Assembly: GCA_007134725.1 (NCBI GenBank)
Contig: SLKF01000018.1
Location: forward strand, 1 to 16,559
Length of the DNA stretch: 16,559 nucleotides
Reading direction: 5' to 3'
DNA from: Clostridiales bacterium
GTDB taxonomy: Bacteria > Bacillota > Clostridia > Peptostreptococcales > T1SED10-28
The notes under the pieces were generated by a model, which was not told the DNA's origin, ran no database searches, and worked only from the letters and a program-made list of their open reading frames with translations. This document shows positions 4,274 through 10,360 of this stretch, one piece after another; position 1 is the first letter of the stretch, and each line of letters begins with the position of its first letter. The translations under genes and the position numbers were made by a program.

Positions 4274-4315
4274 AGAAAAATCAAATTAAAAACAACTGAA
4301 TATTTTGAAGCTACA

Positions 4316-4468
4316 TCTTATCAAGAGCGGTGGAGGGACTGGCCCTACGAAACCCGGCAACCAGGAAGAAATTCCAAGGTGCTAATTCCAGCAGACGATA
4401 TGTCTGGAAGATAAGTGTTGTGTTGTAGATGAATCCTATAGCCGCACTTATTTGAGTGTGGTTTTTTT
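4316..4468 (+). ncRNA. SAM-I (S-box) riboswitch with terminator/antiterminator platform
   Basis: The S-box core is visible: CAAGAGCGGTGGAGGGACTG, then ACGAAACCCGGCAACC, then AAGGTGCTAATTCC, closing with TGGAAGATAAG. P1 is CTTATC (4317-4322) with GATAAG (4410-4415). The expression platform can be read directly. ATAAGTG (4411-4417) can pair with CACTTAT (4445-4451) as an antiterminator, which uses both the P1 3' strand and the terminator 5' arm. With SAM bound, P1 forms and the terminator at 4442-4468 folds, so metYA is switched off when SAM is plentiful. This is a standard transcriptional OFF arrangement. Confidence 0.97.
4442..4468 (+). terminator. Intrinsic terminator of the SAM-I riboswitch
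   Basis: CCGCACT (4442-4448) pairs with AGTGTGG (4455-4461, one G-U pair), followed by seven T at 4462-4468. It lies 56 bases before the metY start codon and competes with the antiterminator described for the riboswitch. Confidence 0.92.
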
Positions 4469-4524: not shown

Positions 4525-5898
4525 ATGAAAAACAATGAAAAGCATCATGCACAGGAAACCCTATGCGTACAGGCAGGCTACCAACCAAAAAACGGCGAGG
4601 CAAGAATTATGCCCATCGTCCAGTCCACCACCTACAAGTACGACAAAGCCGAGGAAGTGGCAAAGCTCTTTGATCTGGAAGCCGAAGGCCATATGTATTC
4701 ACGAATCAGCAACCCCACCGTGGCAGCACTGGAGGAAAAAATGGCAACATTAGAAGGCGGTGTCGGAGCTCTTGGAACCTCATCGGGACAGTCCGCCACT
4801 CTTCTATCCGTCCTTACCATCTGCAATGCGGGAGAACATGTGCTGGCCCTATCCAATCTTTACGGGGGCACCTTTACTCTTTTTTCCTCTACCTTGAAAA
4901 AGATGGGTATCGACGTGACCTTTGTCAATCATCGGGCTACTCCCAAAGAAATTGCATCCCATATTCAAGAGAACACCAAATTGATTTTTGGTGAGACCAT
5001 CGGAAATCCCGGGGTGGATGTTTTAGATATTGAATTGATAGCGAAAGTTGCCCACGATCACGGAATTCCTTTAGTGGTGGATAACACTTTTGCCACCCCT
5101 TATCTTTGTCGACCCATAGAATTCGGAGCCGACATTGTAACCCATTCCACCACCAAATATCTGGATGGACACGCCACTAGTGTTGGAGGAATGATTGTAG
5201 ACAGCGGCAAATTTGATTGGGAGAAAAGCGGTAAATTTCCCCACCTAACTGAGCCGGACCCAAGCTATCACGGCCTTAGCTATACAAAACAGTTTCAAGA
5301 AAAGGCCTACATTACCAAGGCTCGTGTGGCCTTCCTCAGGGATATGGGAAACACCATGAGTCCCTTCAATGCCTTCCTTACGAATCTGGGAGTGGAGACC
5401 TTGGCCCTTCGGATGGAGCGGCACAGTGAAAATGCATTGAAAATTGCTGGATTTTTAGGAAATCATCCCAAGGTCAGTTGGGTTAAGTACCCTCTATTGG
5501 ATAACGGGGACCATTTTGATCTTGCAAAAAAATATCTTCCCAAGGGAGGCAGCGGAATCATCTCCTTCGGAGTCCAAGGTGATGGGGAACAGGGTAAGAC
5601 CTTTATTAATTCTCTCAACTTAGCAAGCCTTGTGGTTCATGTGGGGGATCTTCGAACCCACGTCCTCCACCCTGCCAGCATGACCCATCGTCAACTCTCC
5701 TTGGAAGATCAGATCAAGGCGGGAATCAAGCCGGAAATGGTTCGCCTCTCCGTAGGGATTGAGCATGTGGATGACATTATCGGGGATATTGATCAGGCAC
5801 TGGATGCTTTAGATGGCAACGTGACAAACTCTGCTACAGCAGAATCCAACCCAACCCTTCAAGAGAGTTCAAACTCCATCTCAGCGGAAACGAGGTGA
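4525..5898 (+). CDS. metY: O-acetylhomoserine sulfhydrylase (O-acetylhomoserine aminocarboxypropyltransferase)
   Basis: The enzyme makes homocysteine directly from O-acetylhomoserine and sulfide, using PLP. The 457-residue protein has the Cys/Met-metabolism fold: YSRISNPT near residue 58, GTSSGQSA near 84, VVDNTFATP near 184, and STTKYLDGH with Lys211 as the PLP lysine. It also has HPASMTHRQL, characteristic of MetY-type enzymes. The ATG at 4525 follows AGAGGG by 8 bases. Reading further upstream in frame would run into the riboswitch terminator, so that longer start is rejected. The last 30 or so residues (NSATAESNPTLQESS and so on) form a polar tail beyond the usual domain end. metA follows immediately, its ribosome site spanning the metY stop codon. 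Control is by the SAM-I riboswitch. Confidence 0.95.
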   Translation: MKNNEKHHAQETLCVQAGYQPKNGEARIMPIVQSTTYKYDKAEEVAKLFDLEAEGHMYSRISNPTVAALEEKMATLEGGVGALGTSSGQSATLLSVLTICNAGEHVLALSNLYGGTFTLFSSTLKKMGIDVTFVNHRATPKEIASHIQENTKLIFGETIGNPGVDVLDIELIAKVAHDHGIPLVVDNTFATPYLCRPIEFGADIVTHSTTKYLDGHATSVGGMIVDSGKFDWEKSGKFPHLTEPDPSYHGLSYTKQFQEKAYITKARVAFLRDMGNTMSPFNAFLTNLGVETLALRMERHSENALKIAGFLGNHPKVSWVKYPLLDNGDHFDLAKKYLPKGGSGIISFGVQGDGEQGKTFINSLNLASLVVHVGDLRTHVLHPASMTHRQLSLEDQIKAGIKPEMVRLSVGIEHVDDIIGDIDQALDALDGNVTNSATAESNPTLQESSNSISAETR

Positions 5899-5903
5899 CC
5901 CCT

Positions 5904-6830
5904 ATGCCGGTAATTATTCCTAAGGAGCTACCTGCTAAAGATACTCTGAGCCGAGAGCACATCTTCGTGATGGATAGGGGCAGGGCCAAAACCCAGGATA
6001 TTCGCCCCTTGAAAGTGGCCATTGTCAATTTGATGCCCACAAAGATCGAAACCGAAACCCAACTTCTTCGTATGCTTTCCAATACCCCCCTACAGGTGGA
6101 AGTGGATTTGGTGAAAACCGCCTCCTATGAAAGTCAAAATACGGGAAAAGAGCATCTGAAGAAGTTTTATACCACTTTTGATTCTATTAAAGATAATTTC
6201 TACGATGCCATGATTGTTACCGGCGCTCCCGTGGAACGGATGGATTTTTCTGAAGTTGATTACTGGGAGGAATTAACGGAGATTCTGGATTTCGCTGAAA
6301 AACAGGTGTACTCCACCATGTTTATCTGCTGGGCAGCCCAGGCGGCCCTTTATCATTACTTTAACATTCCGAAATATCCCTTAAGAAAGAAACTCACCGG
6401 GGTCTTTGAAAATGAAGTGACCGGTGAAACGGTTCTCACAAGAGGGTTCGATCACAGCTTTTATGCTCCCCACTCCCGCTATACCTATTGCCGGGAGCAG
6501 GATTTAGAAGGAATTTGGGACCTGAACATCCTGGCAAAATCCAATGAAGCCGGGGTTCACTTGGCCGCAACAAAGGATCACCGAAAGATTTTCGTCTTCG
6601 GCCACAGCGAATACGATGCCGATACCCTGGATAAGGAGTATCAACGGGACCGACTAAAAGAAACCTTGCCTCCCCTCCCGGAAAACTATTACCGAGGGAA
6701 CGATCCCCATAAGGGAATTCGGGTACAGTGGAAAGCCCATGGCAATCTGCTCTTTAGTAATTGGCTCAACTACTGCGTATACCAGGAGACCCCTTTTGAT
6801 ATCAGGAAAATTGGAGAACCTAAAAAATAA
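5904..6830 (+). CDS. metA: Homoserine O-acetyltransferase (MetA-type)
   Basis: MetA acylates homoserine to activate it for methionine synthesis. The protein is 308 residues, the family's normal length. With the ATG at 5904, Cys142 in MFICWAAQAA is the acyl-carrying nucleophile, and His234 and Glu236 in FGHSEYD complete the active site. Residue 111 is Glu (GAPVERMDF). In characterised MetA enzymes Glu at 111 goes with acetyl-CoA and Gly with succinyl-CoA, so this one is predicted to make O-acetylhomoserine, matching the MetY next to it. GAGGTGA, which contains the metY stop codon, lies 5 bases before this ATG. A GTG at 5895 overlapping metY is possible but has no ribosome site and would shift the numbering. 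Confidence 0.95.
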   Translation: MPVIIPKELPAKDTLSREHIFVMDRGRAKTQDIRPLKVAIVNLMPTKIETETQLLRMLSNTPLQVEVDLVKTASYESQNTGKEHLKKFYTTFDSIKDNFYDAMIVTGAPVERMDFSEVDYWEELTEILDFAEKQVYSTMFICWAAQAALYHYFNIPKYPLRKKLTGVFENEVTGETVLTRGFDHSFYAPHSRYTYCREQDLEGIWDLNILAKSNEAGVHLAATKDHRKIFVFGHSEYDADTLDKEYQRDRLKETLPPLPENYYRGNDPHKGIRVQWKAHGNLLFSNWLNYCVYQETPFDIRKIGEPKK

Positions 6831-6842
6831 TCCAAAATAAGT

Positions 6843-6871
6843 TTGACAATTCAGAAAGATCTGTGTATAAT
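6843..6871 (+). promoter_or_regulatory. Consensus sigma-A promoter of the Thr/Met leader-lysC-hom unit
   Basis: TTGACA at 6843-6848 and TATAAT at 6866-6871 match consensus exactly at 17-base spacing, with TG directly before the -10. It starts only 12 bases after the metA stop codon. A promoter this strong is usual when control is exerted afterwards, by attenuation. Confidence 0.9.
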
Positions 6872-6960
6872 CTATAACAATTAACTATAGGAAGTTAACA
6901 AATAAATATGAGTAACTACTGAAAGATCAAAAAGGAAGCACTTTGAAGGGAGAAATAACA

Positions 6961-7065
6961 ATGATCAATGTAAACACGACCACCACTATGACGACCTCGA
7001 TGCCTACCATGGATACCATGTGCACCACGGTAACCATGACCGGAAACTTCAAACAACCTAAATGA
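6961..7065 (+). CDS. Thr/Met-rich leader peptide of the aspartokinase-homoserine dehydrogenase operon
   Basis: A 34-codon reading frame starts at the ATG at 6961, 8 bases after AAGGGAG, and ends at TGA 7063-7065. It contains 12 Thr and 6 Met codons (including the start), for example NTTTTMTTSMPTM near the front. Such composition is explained by ribosome-mediated attenuation, where the ribosome stalls when charged tRNA for the end-product amino acids is scarce. The downstream genes make homoserine, precursor of exactly threonine and methionine. The E. coli thr operon leader is the same idea but uses Thr and Ile codons. The stop codon lies inside the antiterminator 5' strand, so a ribosome finishing the peptide would block antitermination. 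The peptide itself probably has no other function. Confidence 0.88.
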   Translation: MINVNTTTTMTTSMPTMDTMCTTVTMTGNFKQPK

Positions 7066-7130
7066 TCTTGATTGCAAAGAAACCGGGTTTCTTATGGGCG
7101 ATCAGGGATCGCTCATAGTGGAATCTTTTA
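7063..7130 (+). ncRNA. Attenuator: competing antiterminator and terminator hairpins
   Basis: Two exclusive folds can be read. Antiterminator: 7063-7075 (TGATCTTGATTGC, beginning with the leader peptide stop codon) pairs with 7098-7111, 13 pairs with one bulged G and some G-U pairs. It is capped by the inner hairpin AAGAAAC-CGG-GTTTCTT (7077-7093). Terminator: ATGGGCGATC (7094-7103) pairs with GATCGCTCAT (7107-7116), extended downward by 7086-7093 with 7117-7125, then TTTTATAT. The shared strand 7098-7111 makes them mutually exclusive. Stalling on Thr/Met codons leaves the antiterminator strand free; reading to the stop codon covers it. Confidence 0.8.
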
Positions 7131-7243
7131 TATCGAATAATTTAATGAGGCTGTATCGATTGGGAAACGGAAATTACAAGGAATTCTTGTACCCTTCTCT
7201 TATTGGGAATTTCATTGATACATCTTACCTTAAATGATTTTAG

Positions 7244-7275
7244 AAGATGCTGTGAGTCACACAGCATCTTTTTTT
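7244..7275 (+). terminator. Second strong intrinsic terminator in the lysC leader
   Basis: AAGATGCTGTG (7244-7254) pairs perfectly with CACAGCATCTT (7260-7270) around a 5-base loop, followed by T to 7275. It lies about 115 bases beyond the attenuator and 190 bases before the aspartokinase gene. CATCTT at 7221-7226 could pair with AAGATG (7244-7249) and partly oppose it. Just upstream, 7153-7160 with 7214-7221 and 7170-7175 with 7208-7213 form a coaxial stem around a small hairpin (7176-7190), so this stretch is structured. Confidence 0.85.
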
Positions 7276-7320
7276 ATTTTCAATTATTCACTATAGGTTT
7301 AATTTACATTACAGGTTTTC

Positions 7321-7358
7321 ATCTAAATTATCTATCTTAATCTAAATTATCTATCTTA
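7321..7358 (+). repeat. Tandem 19-bp direct repeat, two copies
   Basis: ATCTAAATTATCTATCTTA occurs at 7321-7339 and again without change at 7340-7358, with the first four bases of a third copy after it. It lies in the AT-rich gap between the second leader terminator and the aspartokinase gene. It may be a simple slippage duplication; no function is evident. Confidence 0.85.
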
Positions 7359-7426
7359 ATCTCCATTATGTAGCCTCAACTATACTATCAACGGCCTTTT
7401 GCTTTCTGTTAAGGCTTTGCACGGTT

Positions 7427-7432
7427 TATAAT
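7427..7432 (+). promoter_or_regulatory. Possible internal promoter -10 element just before the aspartokinase gene
   Basis: A perfect TATAAT lies 35 bases before the start codon. The best -35 candidate at proper spacing is poor (TTCTGT at 7404-7409). If active, it would give basal lysC-hom expression that bypasses both leader terminators. Confidence 0.35.
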
Positions 7433-7467
7433 TCTTATCTTAGAAAAATTGAAAAGGAAGTGATCCC

Positions 7468-8325
7468 ATGTTCAGTCCTGTGGTTTCAAAATTTGGCGGA
7501 AGTTCTCTATCCCAGGGAGGCCAATTTCATAAAGTAAAATCCATCATCTCCTCCGGGAAAAAGCGAAACTGTATCGTGGTTTCCGCACCGGGAAAGCGTT
7601 TTAATGGGGATCTTAAGGTTACGGATCTTCTTAGCGAAATCCATCGGTTGAAAGAATCCGGTGAAAGTTACGAAAGACTGCTCTTACAAATCCAAAATCG
7701 CTATCAGGAAATTTTTTGCCACCTCAATATCTCAAAAGATATGGGCAGAGAGATCCACAAGGTTTGCAAGGAAATCAACAACTCTTTAGACCGGGATTTT
7801 ATTCTCAGCAGAGGGGAGTATTTAAACGCATTGATTATGGCAAAATCCTTGGGATATATTCTGGTTGATGCAAAAGATATCATTTTCTTTAAAGAAAATG
7901 GCGTGCTTGATGAGAAAAGAACGGATCAGGCCATTCACAATCGCCTTTCAAAGGAAGAAAAAGTGATTGTTCCAGGTTTTTACGGATCCAATTCCCGTGG
8001 AGCTGTCAAAACCTTTGCCCGGGGTGGCTCGGATATTACTGGAGCTCTGATTGCTAAAGGTATTGGTGCCGCTCTTTATGAAAATTGGACCGATGTATCC
8101 GGTGTTATGACCGCTGATCCGAGTATTGAGCGGTCGGCAAAGACCATCCCCTATCTATCCTATAAAGAACTTATGAGAATTACCCAAGAGGGCGCCCAGG
8201 TTTATCATCCCGATGCCATCCCTCCGGTTGAAAGTAGGAATATTGCACTGCATATCAAAAATACCAACAGCCCGAAAGAATCGGGAACCATTATAAAAGG
8301 AGATGATCAACATGGAAAAGATTAA
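7468..8325 (+). CDS. lysC: Aspartate kinase, catalytic domain only (no ACT domains)
   Basis: The enzyme phosphorylates aspartate, the first step toward lysine, threonine and methionine. The 285-residue protein has the amino-acid kinase fold: KFGGSS at residues 8-13, VVSAPGK near 38, FILSRGEYLNA, ARGGSDITGA for nucleotide binding, and NWTDVSGVMTADP. It then ends at NTNSPKESGTII plus a short tail. Typical aspartokinases run on for over 100 residues of paired ACT domains that bind the feedback inhibitor; these are absent. The next gene starts at that point, so this is not a frameshift in a longer gene. AAGGAAG lies 7 bases before the ATG. The stop overlaps the homoserine dehydrogenase start by 14 bases. 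Control is by the Thr/Met leader upstream. The symbol is by family; thr-type naming is equally possible. Confidence 0.92.
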   Translation: MFSPVVSKFGGSSLSQGGQFHKVKSIISSGKKRNCIVVSAPGKRFNGDLKVTDLLSEIHRLKESGESYERLLLQIQNRYQEIFCHLNISKDMGREIHKVCKEINNSLDRDFILSRGEYLNALIMAKSLGYILVDAKDIIFFKENGVLDEKRTDQAIHNRLSKEEKVIVPGFYGSNSRGAVKTFARGGSDITGALIAKGIGAALYENWTDVSGVMTADPSIERSAKTIPYLSYKELMRITQEGAQVYHPDAIPPVESRNIALHIKNTNSPKESGTIIKGDDQHGKD

Positions 8326-9292
8326 AATTGCACTACTAGGACTGGGAACTGTGGGTAGCGGTGTGAGAGAAATACTAAATGAAAAGCAGGAACAACTTAG
8401 CCAAAAGATTTATCAGAAAAACGGACAGAAAGTCACCATCGAGATCGCAAAAATTTTGATTCGACGTCCTGAAAATTACTTGGAAGCGGACCCCTCTCTC
8501 CTTACTACAAATTATCAGGAAATCCTGGATGATGACAGCATCAAAGTAGTTGTGGAGGCCATGGGTGGAGAACATCCTGCCACAGAGTATATGATAAGCG
8601 CCATGGAGAAGAAGAAACAGGTGGTCAGTGCCAATAAGCTTGCTATTGCTAAGTCCCACGGCTCACTAGAAGAAGTCGCTCGTAAAAATCAAGTGCACTT
8701 TTCCTACGAAGCCGCTGTGGCGGGTACCGTCCCCATTCTCCGAACAATCAATGATTCCCTGGTGGCCAATGAAATTACCAAGGTGTCGGGAATAATTAAC
8801 GGAACCACCAACTACATCTTAAGCAAAATGACCAATGAACAAAGTAGTTACAAAGACGCCCTTAAAAAAGCCCAGGAGCTGGGCTTTGCAGAAGCGGATC
8901 CCGCCTCGGATGTAAACGGTGACGATGCGAAGTATAAAATCGCCATTCTTTCCCGCCTGGCCTTTGGAAAATGGCCGGATCTGGACTCCATCGATTGCCA
9001 GGGAATCACTGCAGTAACCCCGAAGCAGATTAAGGATGCAAAGACAAAGGGCAAGGTTATTAAGTTCCTTGCCCAGTCGGAAAAAGTGAATGGTAACATC
9101 ATCGCCTCCGTATCACTACAGGAAATTGACCGTCAGCATCCCTTAGCCCATGTGGAAGGCGCTATGAACGCCGTCTACCTACACTGTGACAATGCCGGCG
9201 AGCTACTTTTCCAGGGAGCCGGTGCCGGTTCAAGACCCACGGCCAGTGCTGTAATCAGCGATGTTTTTGAGATTATAGAAAGATACCGCTAA
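8312..9292 (+). CDS. hom: Homoserine dehydrogenase, short form without ACT domain
   Basis: This enzyme reduces aspartate semialdehyde to homoserine, the branch point for threonine and methionine. The 326-residue protein has the Rossmann loop GLGTVGSG near residue 10, EAMGGEHPA, and SANKLAIA (Lys109). It also has the substrate segment SGIINGTTNYIL, and ADPASDVNGDDAKYK with Asp205 and Lys209 as likely catalytic residues. It ends at GAGAGSRPTASAV plus a short helix, where many bacterial enzymes continue into an ACT domain. I chose the ATG at 8312 because AAAAGGAG ends 9 bases upstream; the in-frame ATG at 8303 sits directly against that ribosome site. The 14-base overlap with the kinase gene implies translational coupling. 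No clear terminator follows. Confidence 0.94.
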   Translation: MEKIKIALLGLGTVGSGVREILNEKQEQLSQKIYQKNGQKVTIEIAKILIRRPENYLEADPSLLTTNYQEILDDDSIKVVVEAMGGEHPATEYMISAMEKKKQVVSANKLAIAKSHGSLEEVARKNQVHFSYEAAVAGTVPILRTINDSLVANEITKVSGIINGTTNYILSKMTNEQSSYKDALKKAQELGFAEADPASDVNGDDAKYKIAILSRLAFGKWPDLDSIDCQGITAVTPKQIKDAKTKGKVIKFLAQSEKVNGNIIASVSLQEIDRQHPLAHVEGAMNAVYLHCDNAGELLFQGAGAGSRPTASAVISDVFEIIERYR

Positions 9293-9524
9293 AAATCTTA
9301 TAAAAATTCATTTTACAGAAAAATATTTGTTTTAAAAAAAACGATTGAGGGTATTTATTCGTTAACATAAGGTAATATAAGTAAATATTAGATAATATTT
9401 CTGAAATCTATTGAGTATGGTCTAGAATGATTGACAATATAAGGTTTAGTGGTTTAGGGAGGATGAATAATAAGAGTTGGAGGTGAATTGGCAGTTTTGA
9501 TAACTAAAATCAAAAAAGATTAAA
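9293..9524 (+). other. AT-rich spacer between hom and the c-di-GMP riboswitch, no gene seen
   Basis: No credible reading frame is present. A weak AT hairpin AAATATT-AGAT-AATATTT lies at 9383-9400 without a T-run. TTGACA at 9431-9436 is a perfect -35, but the sequence 17 bases on (TTAGGG) is a poor -10, so the promoter for the riboswitch transcript is not settled. Confidence 0.5.
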
Positions 9525-9626
9525 TGATAGGGAAGCTATGAAATCAAGTCTGTATCTGGACACTTGGACTTGATGGAGCTACTAGTGTAACCGGCCCTCT
9601 TACTTATGGAAAAAACAAGTGAGAGG
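9525..9626 (+). ncRNA. Class II cyclic-di-GMP riboswitch with translational expression platform
   Basis: The segment CTGGACACTTGG, then GCTACTAGTGTAACCGGCC, matches the conserved core of c-di-GMP-II aptamers from memory. The fold is also present: P1 AGGG (9529-9532) with CCCT (9595-9598), P2 ATCAAGTC (9543-9550) with GACTTGAT (9567-9574), and ACACT with AGTGT. Downstream, CCTCTTACTT (9596-9605) pairs with AAGTGAGAGG (9617-9626), and that second arm holds the GAGG ribosome site of the next gene. The P1 3' strand and this anti-SD arm overlap, so both cannot form. Ligand binding should stabilise P1 and free the ribosome site, predicting an ON switch. No T-run follows, so transcription termination is unlikely. 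Confidence 0.87.
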
Positions 9627-9637
9627 ATGGGTGTATA

Positions 9638-10360
9638 ATGAAAAAAGGTATGGTATTGGTTTTAGTGTTAGCGATGGTGTTGAGCATGACAGCAGTGGGG
9701 TTTGCCAACTTCGGTGTTGAGGTTACAATCGAACCTTCATCTACTGCGACTGATAAAATCTCCGTTGAGCAAGGCGAGACATTAATTCTTACTGCAACAT
9801 CTGATCTTGGCAATGGAACCTATAGTTTTATTGAGGATTTATGGACAGGAGCAGAAAGACAAACAGGTCCTTCAGCTGGTGACTCATCTACAAATTTCTT
9901 TGTTTCAACCGCTAAATTCTCATCAATAGGAATGGAAGTAGGTAGTGAACACACCGTAACTTATCGGATTAAAGTTAATCGGCCTGGTGGTGGACAATCC
10001 GGTACGGACTATGATGACTCTGACGAAGCATATATTGAAATCATCCAACAGGAAATGACCATCGTCGTCGAACCCATGGCAGCACCTTCCATCGCCGCAA
10101 AGATATTGGAAGCGAATGGTATCCAATCACGATATGGTCAGGGTCGAAACGGAGGAAATTTTATTGCTGATGTTGCTCGAACAATGGGACCTCAGGCTGT
10201 ATTTATGGATACCGCGAAAGCAGTTTGGTGTGACGATGCAGAAGTTTACGTTGCTAATCCTTATTATTGGAATGCAGTACTGAATTTTCTTAATCAACAC
10301 ACCTGGATGAATGAAGTCTTAGAAGGCGATTTTGATTGGTATGTTAATTCACTAAAATAA
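9638..10360 (+). CDS. Secreted protein of unknown function under c-di-GMP control
   Basis: The 240-residue protein begins with a clear Sec signal peptide, MKKGMVLVLVLAMVLS, probably cut after VGFA near residue 23. Residues 25-140 are strand-rich with Val/Thr alternation (FGVEVTIEP, EAYIEIIQQEMTIVV), resembling an Ig-like beta-sandwich. A Gly/Asp-rich loop near 117-130 might bind calcium, which is inference. Residues 150-240 form a different, mixed segment with RYGQGRNGGNFIADVARTMG and several aromatics, which I do not recognise. There is one cysteine (198) and no LPXTG, transmembrane anchor or lipobox, so it is probably released or held non-covalently. GAGG lies 11 bases before the ATG, in the riboswitch-controlled hairpin. 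Control by c-di-GMP suggests a role in surface attachment or motility-to-sessile transition. Confidence 0.8.
   Translation: MKKGMVLVLVLAMVLSMTAVGFANFGVEVTIEPSSTATDKISVEQGETLILTATSDLGNGTYSFIEDLWTGAERQTGPSAGDSSTNFFVSTAKFSSIGMEVGSEHTVTYRIKVNRPGGGQSGTDYDDSDEAYIEIIQQEMTIVVEPMAAPSIAAKILEANGIQSRYGQGRNGGNFIADVARTMGPQAVFMDTAKAVWCDDAEVYVANPYYWNAVLNFLNQHTWMNEVLEGDFDWYVNSLK

Follow-up and report, generated by a model that had tools for sequence, protein, structure and literature searches.

The locus described here raises the question of how lysC and hom are controlled when neither of the encoded enzymes carries the domain through which feedback would usually act. The window, by which we mean the whole 16,559-nt stretch of DNA that was analysed, is contig C303 of a genome (G000) that is 79.9% complete. 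On its + strand a SAM riboswitch, metY, metA, a promoter, a leader ORF, a series of hairpins, lysC and hom follow each other in this order. The outer elements are:

4315–4417, + strand: SAM-I (S-box) riboswitch, 5′ of metY-metA (Rfam RF00162, 88.6 bits)
4525–5898, + strand: metY (start chosen by eye)
5895–6830, + strand: metA
7468–8325, + strand: lysC, aspartate kinase, 285 aa, without ACT domains (profile and Pfam matches)
8303–9292, + strand: hom, homoserine dehydrogenase, 329 aa, without ACT domain (profile and Pfam matches)

ACT domains are the usual site of feedback action. Pfam detected none in LysC or Hom; in aspartate kinase profiles the match of LysC is confined to the catalytic portion (for instance 3–293 of 454), and Hom covers positions 2–321 of 430 in its profile. 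End-product control may thus sit in the leader. From the end of metA (6830) to the leader promoter there are 12 nt, which is insufficient room for a terminator. Counterpart loci from two relatives (Clostridiales/Clostridiaceae MAG records) were compared: L002, taken as the locus of genome G003, and L003, taken as that of G004. Triplets of values are given in the order window, L002, L003; triplets of pairwise identities are given in the order window–L002, window–L003, L002–L003.

We consider it probable that lysC-hom is governed by a ribosome-mediated transcription attenuator which reads the charging of Thr-tRNA and Met-tRNA and which, in our folding models, is wired as a relay. The two parts of this reading differ in strength: a Thr/Met attenuator as such is very likely, and its relay to a second terminator is slightly favoured. 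The reading starts from a promoter and a short ORF.

6843–6871, + strand: leader promoter, TTGACA, 17 nt, TATAAT (12 of 12 consensus bases)
6945–6952, + strand: Shine-Dalgarno sequence GAAGGGAG, 8 nt 5′ of the ATG (read by eye)
6961–7065, + strand: leader peptide ORF of 34 codons, stop codon at 7063–7065, with counterparts in L002 and L003

A consensus promoter and a leader of 34 codons, 12 for Thr and 6 for Met, had been predicted from the sequence, and both are borne out. The promoter has all 12 bases also in L002 (2683–2711) and L003 (2706–2734). The reading frame, which encodes the peptide MINVNTTTTMTTSMPTMDTMCTTVTMTGNFKQPK followed by the stop, contains 12 Thr codons (8 ACC, 3 ACG, 1 ACT) and, including the start, 6 Met codons. 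The leader of L002 (MMNLNTTTMTTMPTIETMCMTATMTANFKQFQ) has 10 Thr and 7 Met codons, that of L003 (MISVYTTTTTMTTMPTMETMSMTGTMTTNFKQFQ) 13 and 7. Read from the sequence, a short ORF with a ribosome site thus appears to precede lysC-hom, and its excess of end-product codons is shared by both homologues. The binomial chance of at least 17 Thr plus Met in 33 codons is 1.6e-10 against a background of 8.4% (ten window ORFs); this figure is post hoc, enrichment having been the reason for choosing the ORF. The homologues are stronger evidence: a leader of this type is present in each of the two other species that have the locus. In a short-ORF scan (ribosome-site motif plus Thr/Met-rich stretch) over loci L001–L076, many of them overlapping, the leaders of the three species reached the maximum of 24, the next best ORF scoring 16. 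Over-representation of ACC/ACG as a sign of rare-codon use in the leader was not significant (p 0.11).

The leader is followed by a first pair of competing structures.

7066–7107, + strand: antiterminator 1 (AT1), S1 (7066–7075) with S2 (7098–7107), 10 of 10 pairs in three species
7077–7083/7087–7093, + strand: hairpin enclosed by AT1, 7 of 7 pairs in each of the three species
7085–7126, + strand: T1 hairpin of 19 pairs and a single bulge, 3′ arm termed S3, modest U-tract at 7123–7131 (UCUUUUAUAU)

The original prediction had placed the antiterminator at 7063–7075/7098–7111, with the stop codon inside its 5′ strand. This is nearly what we find, but the stop codon (7063–7065) abuts S1. The competing hairpin, predicted at 7086–7125 with a T-run, is also present, but its U-tract is modest, and it is unlikely to be the sole or principal terminator. 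Folding energies of the region 7063–7110 and its counterparts range from −16.0 to −16.9 kcal/mol, and 7063–7131 and its counterparts have folding z-scores of −3.6, −3.2, and −4.3. Changes in S2 among the species are purine exchanges which keep the pairing with U. T1 shares S2 and retains 19, 18, and 18 of its 19 pairs. The terminator scan made no call for T1 in any of the three species. In all three species, AT1 is the predicted fold of an RNA cut off behind S2; the complete stretch adopts T1. If the stop codon occupied the A site, the ribosome, with the footprint assumed, would shield the RNA as far as about 7075 and so block AT1. AT1 and T1 are predicted to be mutually exclusive, with S1 covered by a ribosome at the stop codon.

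A second terminator lies between T1 and lysC.

7131–7240, + strand: spacer between S3 and S4, partly conserved, folded, without Rfam family
7242–7280, + strand: T2, canonical intrinsic terminator, stem 7242–7254/7260–7272 (13 bp), then a long U-tract

The original prediction, whose overall reading of a Thr/Met leader coupled to competing hairpins over lysC-hom stands, did not mention T2. T2 has a folding z-score of −5.9 in the window, was called by the terminator scan in all three species and has 13 of 13 pairs in each; an intrinsic terminator with a U-tract thus precedes the first gene. Since T2 is conserved between T1 and lysC, it is presumably the main terminator.

A simpler explanation would be a plain attenuator with a single terminator: the leader controls T1 only, and T2 together with the spacer is a separate device, either a terminator that acts partially and without condition or an element resembling an orphan riboswitch. 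We regard this as somewhat unlikely. T1/AT1 by itself is a complete textbook design, and the spacer (7131–7240), with 71 of 110 window positions invariant among the three species, folds into a three-way-junction-like shape. Against this stand the weaker U-tract of T1, its being missed by the scan which called T2, and the weak z-scores of the spacer (−2.4, −1.1, and −1.3 for 7140–7236 and its counterparts). Moreover, the region 6840–7480 yielded no T-box, S-box, lysine riboswitch or other Rfam match at gathering score; eight matches with E-values up to 5 were all below their own gathering scores. Three candidates from this region were rejected. One was a new riboswitch in the spacer: its junction is plausible, but the z-scores are weak and, among 393 genomes, its covariance model found little beyond the three species. 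For a short ORF in the spacer (window 7145–7237, by eye), no counterpart was visible in the other two loci. A local T2 antiterminator (CATCTT/AAGATG, by eye) in the window is absent from L002 and L003.

The preferred reading, in which T1 and T2 are coupled, rests on a helix which connects them.

7111–7257, + strand: antiterminator 2 (AT2), S3 (7111–7119 and 7123–7130) with S4 (7241–7257), 17 pairs, 3-nt bulge

S3 is the 3′ arm of T1 and S4 comprises the 5′ arm and loop of T2, so that in the models S3:S4 pairing excludes both T1 and T2; the two terminators seem to be linked. The scheme would operate as follows. When a ribosome is slowed on the early Thr/Met codons, as we presume to happen upon shortage, S1 would remain free and pair with S2. 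AT1 would prevent T1 and release S3, which would capture S4 as AT2, and the polymerase would read into lysC-hom; the helices presumably form in this order during transcription. With Thr and Met in ample supply, the ribosome would reach the stop codon and cover S1. S3 would then be held in T1, or by a leader segment (S0, see below), leaving S4 free for T2 to form; T1 possibly terminates too under these conditions. In its fullest form, the model is a chain S1:S2, S2:S3, S3:S4, S4:S5 (S5 being the 3′ arm of T2) with S0 competing for the hub S3. Two serial terminators would thus operate under a single sensor of two amino acids, replacing the allosteric feedback that both enzymes lack; this we put forward tentatively.

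S3:S4 has 17, 16, and 16 of 17 pairs and duplex energies of −17.0, −16.0, and −15.5 kcal/mol. Shuffled versions of S3 did as well in 8, 9, and 4 of 2000 cases and those of S4 in 6, 3, and 2 of 2000. Among pairs from other terminators with matched arm length, 80, 114, and 135 of 13110 (0.6–1.0%) were as good; random terminator pairs with arms shorter than the native ones were as good in 0.2–0.3% of 4000, short arms favouring the relay. None of 115 other 5′ arms matched S4 as a partner for S3 (best −11.7), and 0, 0, and 1 of 115 other 3′ arms matched S3 as a partner for S4. The native S4 duplex was matched by 0.9, 1.8, and 2.7% of 110 3′ arms, the strongest of these being T2's own 3′ arm. Complementarity exceeding that of about 99% of other terminator pairs argues against a single-terminator design. 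The changes in S3:S4 (one U-G to U-A, two end pairs lost) do not amount to real covariation, as only three sequences with nearly identical S3 and S4 are available. Of the positions needed by AT2 alone, 6 of 8 are invariant; outside all helices the figure is 77 of 120, and numbers this small do not discriminate.

The relay was also modelled as an ensemble. The RNA used here began at the stop codon and ended with S4; it contained neither leader codons nor S5. With S1 free, AT1 formed with a probability of 0.99, AT2 with 1.00, 1.00, and 0.98, and T1 with 0.00. With S1 masked, T1 reached 0.88, 0.99, and 0.99, and AT2 dropped to 0.40, 0.01, and 0.00; in the window, AT2 remains at 0.40, or 0.57 by a wider measure, until S5 emerges. 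When S5 was added stepwise, T2 took over in both S1 states and won in both once S5 was complete, so that AT2 must act kinetically. Replacing S4 by 108 other terminators or by 200 shuffled versions never brought AT2 within 0.1 of the native value in any of the three species, which is a further point against T2 being a separate device. With S1 free, the 108 replacements gave a mean T1 of 0.87, 0.95, and 0.31, compared to the native 0.00. Native S4 thus lets AT1 win at equilibrium in the window and in L002, and less so in L003, where 23 of the 108 replacements and 77 of the 200 shuffled versions left T1 at less than 0.1. A shorter RNA, ending 3–4 nt earlier in S4, was less favourable to the relay: in L003, even with AT1 forced, the T2 arm and the T1 U-tract paired at only 0.14–0.20, and the lower AT2 pairing of the window was 0.70–0.97 despite masked S1 (one base 0.01).

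The leader codons themselves add a competitor.

6983–6994, + strand: S0, leader codons (CCACTATGACGA) complementary to S3, including one ATG codon (from duplex energy)

S0:S3 has −16.8 kcal/mol in the window and −13.9 kcal/mol in L002 and L003. Codon-order shuffles were as good in 14, 50, and 122 of 2000 cases and synonymous redraws of the Thr codons in 27, 33, and 23 of 2000; support for S0:S3 is thus moderate. Models which include the leader, with a 28-nt ribosome mask, treat a kinetic process at equilibrium and ignore following ribosomes. For stalls at Thr/Met codons 6–14, they gave AT2 at 0.94–1.00 in the window and at 0.97–1.00 in L002. At later stalls, AT2 fell to at most 0.51 from codon 16 in the window and at most 0.33 from codon 17 in L002; in L003 it was 0.92–0.98 at codons 6–9, 0.17 at codon 10 and at most 0.01 from codon 11. 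Late stalls (codon 17 on) showed S0:S3 pairing and little AT2. At codons 6–8 of L002 and 6–9 of L003, AT2 formed with AT1 at about 0.00–0.01 and is there independent of AT1. With no ribosome, or with one at the stop codon, S3 was mainly paired to the leader (0.85–1.00) and T1 was at 0.00. The failure of T1 to form with a ribosome at the stop codon conflicts with the simple picture of the first switch. A role of S3 as hub and of T2 as effective terminator fits these predictions. Models with leader codons are less clean than those without, L003 being worst, and that they give no clean relay is a point for the single-terminator explanation.

The second issue is whether methionine is sensed at all. 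The leader may be a threonine-only sensor, its Met codons being by-products (one transition away from ACG) or kept for RNA pairing; we consider this unlikely. It would be compatible with positions of the leader alignment, such as codon 22, where Thr and Met replace each other, with the ATG codon inside S0, and with methionine control being exerted already upstream through the SAM riboswitch of metY-metA. On the other side, there are 5, 6, and 6 internal Met codons, an excess with binomial probabilities of 0.002, 0.0002, and 0.0003 relative to the Met frequency of the ten window ORFs, although the leaders are not independent, and at three internal positions of the alignment all leaders have Met. 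In addition, the window Hom has a single match apiece in G000, G003, and G004, two of the three genomes being incomplete. We thus retain a Thr/Met leader, in which Met-tRNA charging is presumably read along with that of Thr-tRNA.

The third explanation, an undetected promoter after T2 which drives lysC-hom and leaves the leader transcript as a stand-alone small RNA or peptide, is improbable. No promoter-like site in the T2-lysC interval is shared by all three species: one weak site is present in the window (7303–7331, 9 of 12), but none was found on the + strand after T2 at the scan's threshold in L002 and L003. The interval is also poorly conserved (pairwise identity 59, 58, and 65%, with large gaps) and varies in length, with 194 nt in the window versus 70 nt (L002) and 96 nt (L003). 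Transcripts therefore probably must pass T2. In the window, this interval contains a tandem duplication (7321–7358) of the 19-nt unit ATCTAAATTATCTATCTTA.

That the leader is an accidental Thr/Met-rich ORF is extremely unlikely: short ORFs are common, but a promoter, a ribosome site and hairpins accompany this one in three species, and its conservation contradicts chance.

As read from the DNA, the promoter, leader and mutually exclusive helices recur in both congeners found to have the locus. Homologous leaders lacking Thr/Met enrichment or paired hairpins would have spoken against the original prediction, and both homologues keep the Thr/Met run and the hairpins. Pairwise DNA identity (aligned bases) is 91, 88, and 94% for the attenuator and 92, 94, and 89% for T2, compared to 77, 74, and 90% for the leader ORF, 75, 70, and 84% for the spacer (7147–7236), 75, 76, and 79% for lysC, and 74, 71, and 78% for hom.

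Beyond these loci, the attenuator RNA model matched 3 of 393 genomes of the order (G000, G003, and G004 only). The spacer-T2 covariance model matched 4 of 393, namely the three species and G533 with a marginal 70-nt match (E 3.5e-4), which we take for a terminator match. A leader-peptide profile, searched against 391 genomes of the class, matched four at E ≤ 0.01: the own leader and, weakly (E 9e-4 to 3e-3), G154, G256, and G328. The scan found no Thr/Met-rich ORF in the 3-kb loci around the latter three matches, which are therefore taken for chance. There was thus no further supported case in the samples of 393 (order, RNA model) and 391 (class, peptide profile) genomes. As these samples were drawn evenly from larger groups and both RNA-model searches used stricter filters, other clades may hold similar leaders.

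The E. coli thrL leader uses Thr and Ile codons, whereas only one Ile codon is found per leader here (codon 2 in the window, codon 15 in L002, codon 2 in L003), so that Ile is not mixed with Thr in the manner of thrL. Both are ribosome-read, Thr-rich leaders with a preference for ACC over homoserine/threonine synthesis genes. The window leader differs in combining Thr with Met, in its clostridial host, in its ACT-less lysC-hom and in a second terminator that is apparently coupled. Eight ACC codons are reported for thrL in the portion cited (PMC1183508), to be compared with 8 ACC among the 12 Thr codons of the window leader. According to the same portion of that attenuation model, sensitivity drops if only some control codons are regulatory, which would put a mixed Thr/Met leader at a disadvantage.

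Amino-acid leader attenuation in Gram-positives is likewise described, in the portions cited, for the Leu-rich ilv-leu leader of Staphylococcus aureus (PMC5794164) and the His leaders of hisS/hisZ in bacilli (PMC2965389). These differ in having Leu or His codons, and the cited portions describe no second coupled terminator. The Salmonella mgtCBR leader, as summarized in the source, has tandem attenuators with two ORFs acting independently and additively (PMC3641672). It resembles the present case in that two signals are read by attenuation in one leader mRNA; here, one mixed-codon ORF and a chain of overlapping helices would be used instead. Another two-input methionine device, described in the portion cited, is a SAM riboswitch which also senses uncharged initiator tRNA (PMC7270179). 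For threonine/methionine operons of Actinobacteria, the cited portion of a survey reports that no conserved RNA structures were found (PMC1262725). A search of titles and abstract openings in the open-licence PMC literature found neither a Thr/Met leader nor a two-terminator relay among the matches listed, which is weak evidence.

Methionine genes of Firmicutes are controlled by S-box and T-box elements through transcription termination. The present system shares termination control of the same pathway, and an S-box sits 5′ of metY-metA. It differs in that none of these elements was found at Rfam gathering score between metA and lysC, where a leader ribosome would act as the sensor. If true, sensing of both branch-point end products by one leader would economically control a shared intermediate, homoserine, and would coincide with enzymes lacking ACT domains. 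The relay, if true, would extend the classical attenuation design, as the arm of a first hairpin disarms a second, stronger terminator; it could give tighter shut-off. The putative Thr/Met switch belongs to a group of sediment clostridia.

Within the family, this lysC is present in three of six genomes (G000, G003, and G004); G001, G002, and G005 have a distant match only. A distant second lysC match is found elsewhere in G000, within a 418-codon frame; five loci of this second lysC, scanned for a lysine riboswitch, gave no Rfam match at gathering score. The genes thrB and thrC sit on other contigs than lysC-hom. A thrC match above cut-off was found in G001, G002, and G004, with a contig-end fragment below cut-off in G003 and none above cut-off in the incomplete G000; thrB was above cut-off in G000, G001, G002, and G004 and not in the incomplete G003. 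In G001 and G002, which are near-complete and of the same genus as the window, thrB and thrC are present and the window hom has no match. Six thrB/thrC regions had no Rfam element at gathering score, and 16 matches to Thr-rich short ORFs in these regions were judged non-leaders by position and ribosome sites.

A different arrangement is seen in G024, from another family, which has a SAM riboswitch, metY, a metA::lysC fusion, hom and asd in this order (gene names by eye). There, metA and an ACT-less lysC apparently form one 602-codon frame (L044, 8667–10475, − strand; names by eye), located 3′ of the SAM riboswitch and metY and 5′ of hom and asd. We infer, from gene order and without a tree, that lysC-hom is under its own control in the window genus and part of a SAM-riboswitch operon in G024. 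In G058, a hom match lies in a 562-codon frame with a kinase-like start (L045, 5537–7225, − strand), apparently a lysC::hom fusion (by eye), which is followed by asd, with metY and metA nearby.

Two further riboswitches were observed. In the window, a cyclic di-GMP-II riboswitch (9522–9605; Rfam, 76 bits) is located directly 5′ of a 240-aa ORF (9638–10360), which has a signal-like N-terminus (by eye) and no Pfam/NCBIfam match at E 0.001. A THF riboswitch (L047, 1951–2042; Rfam, 75 bits) lies on the contig that also carries the L003 locus.
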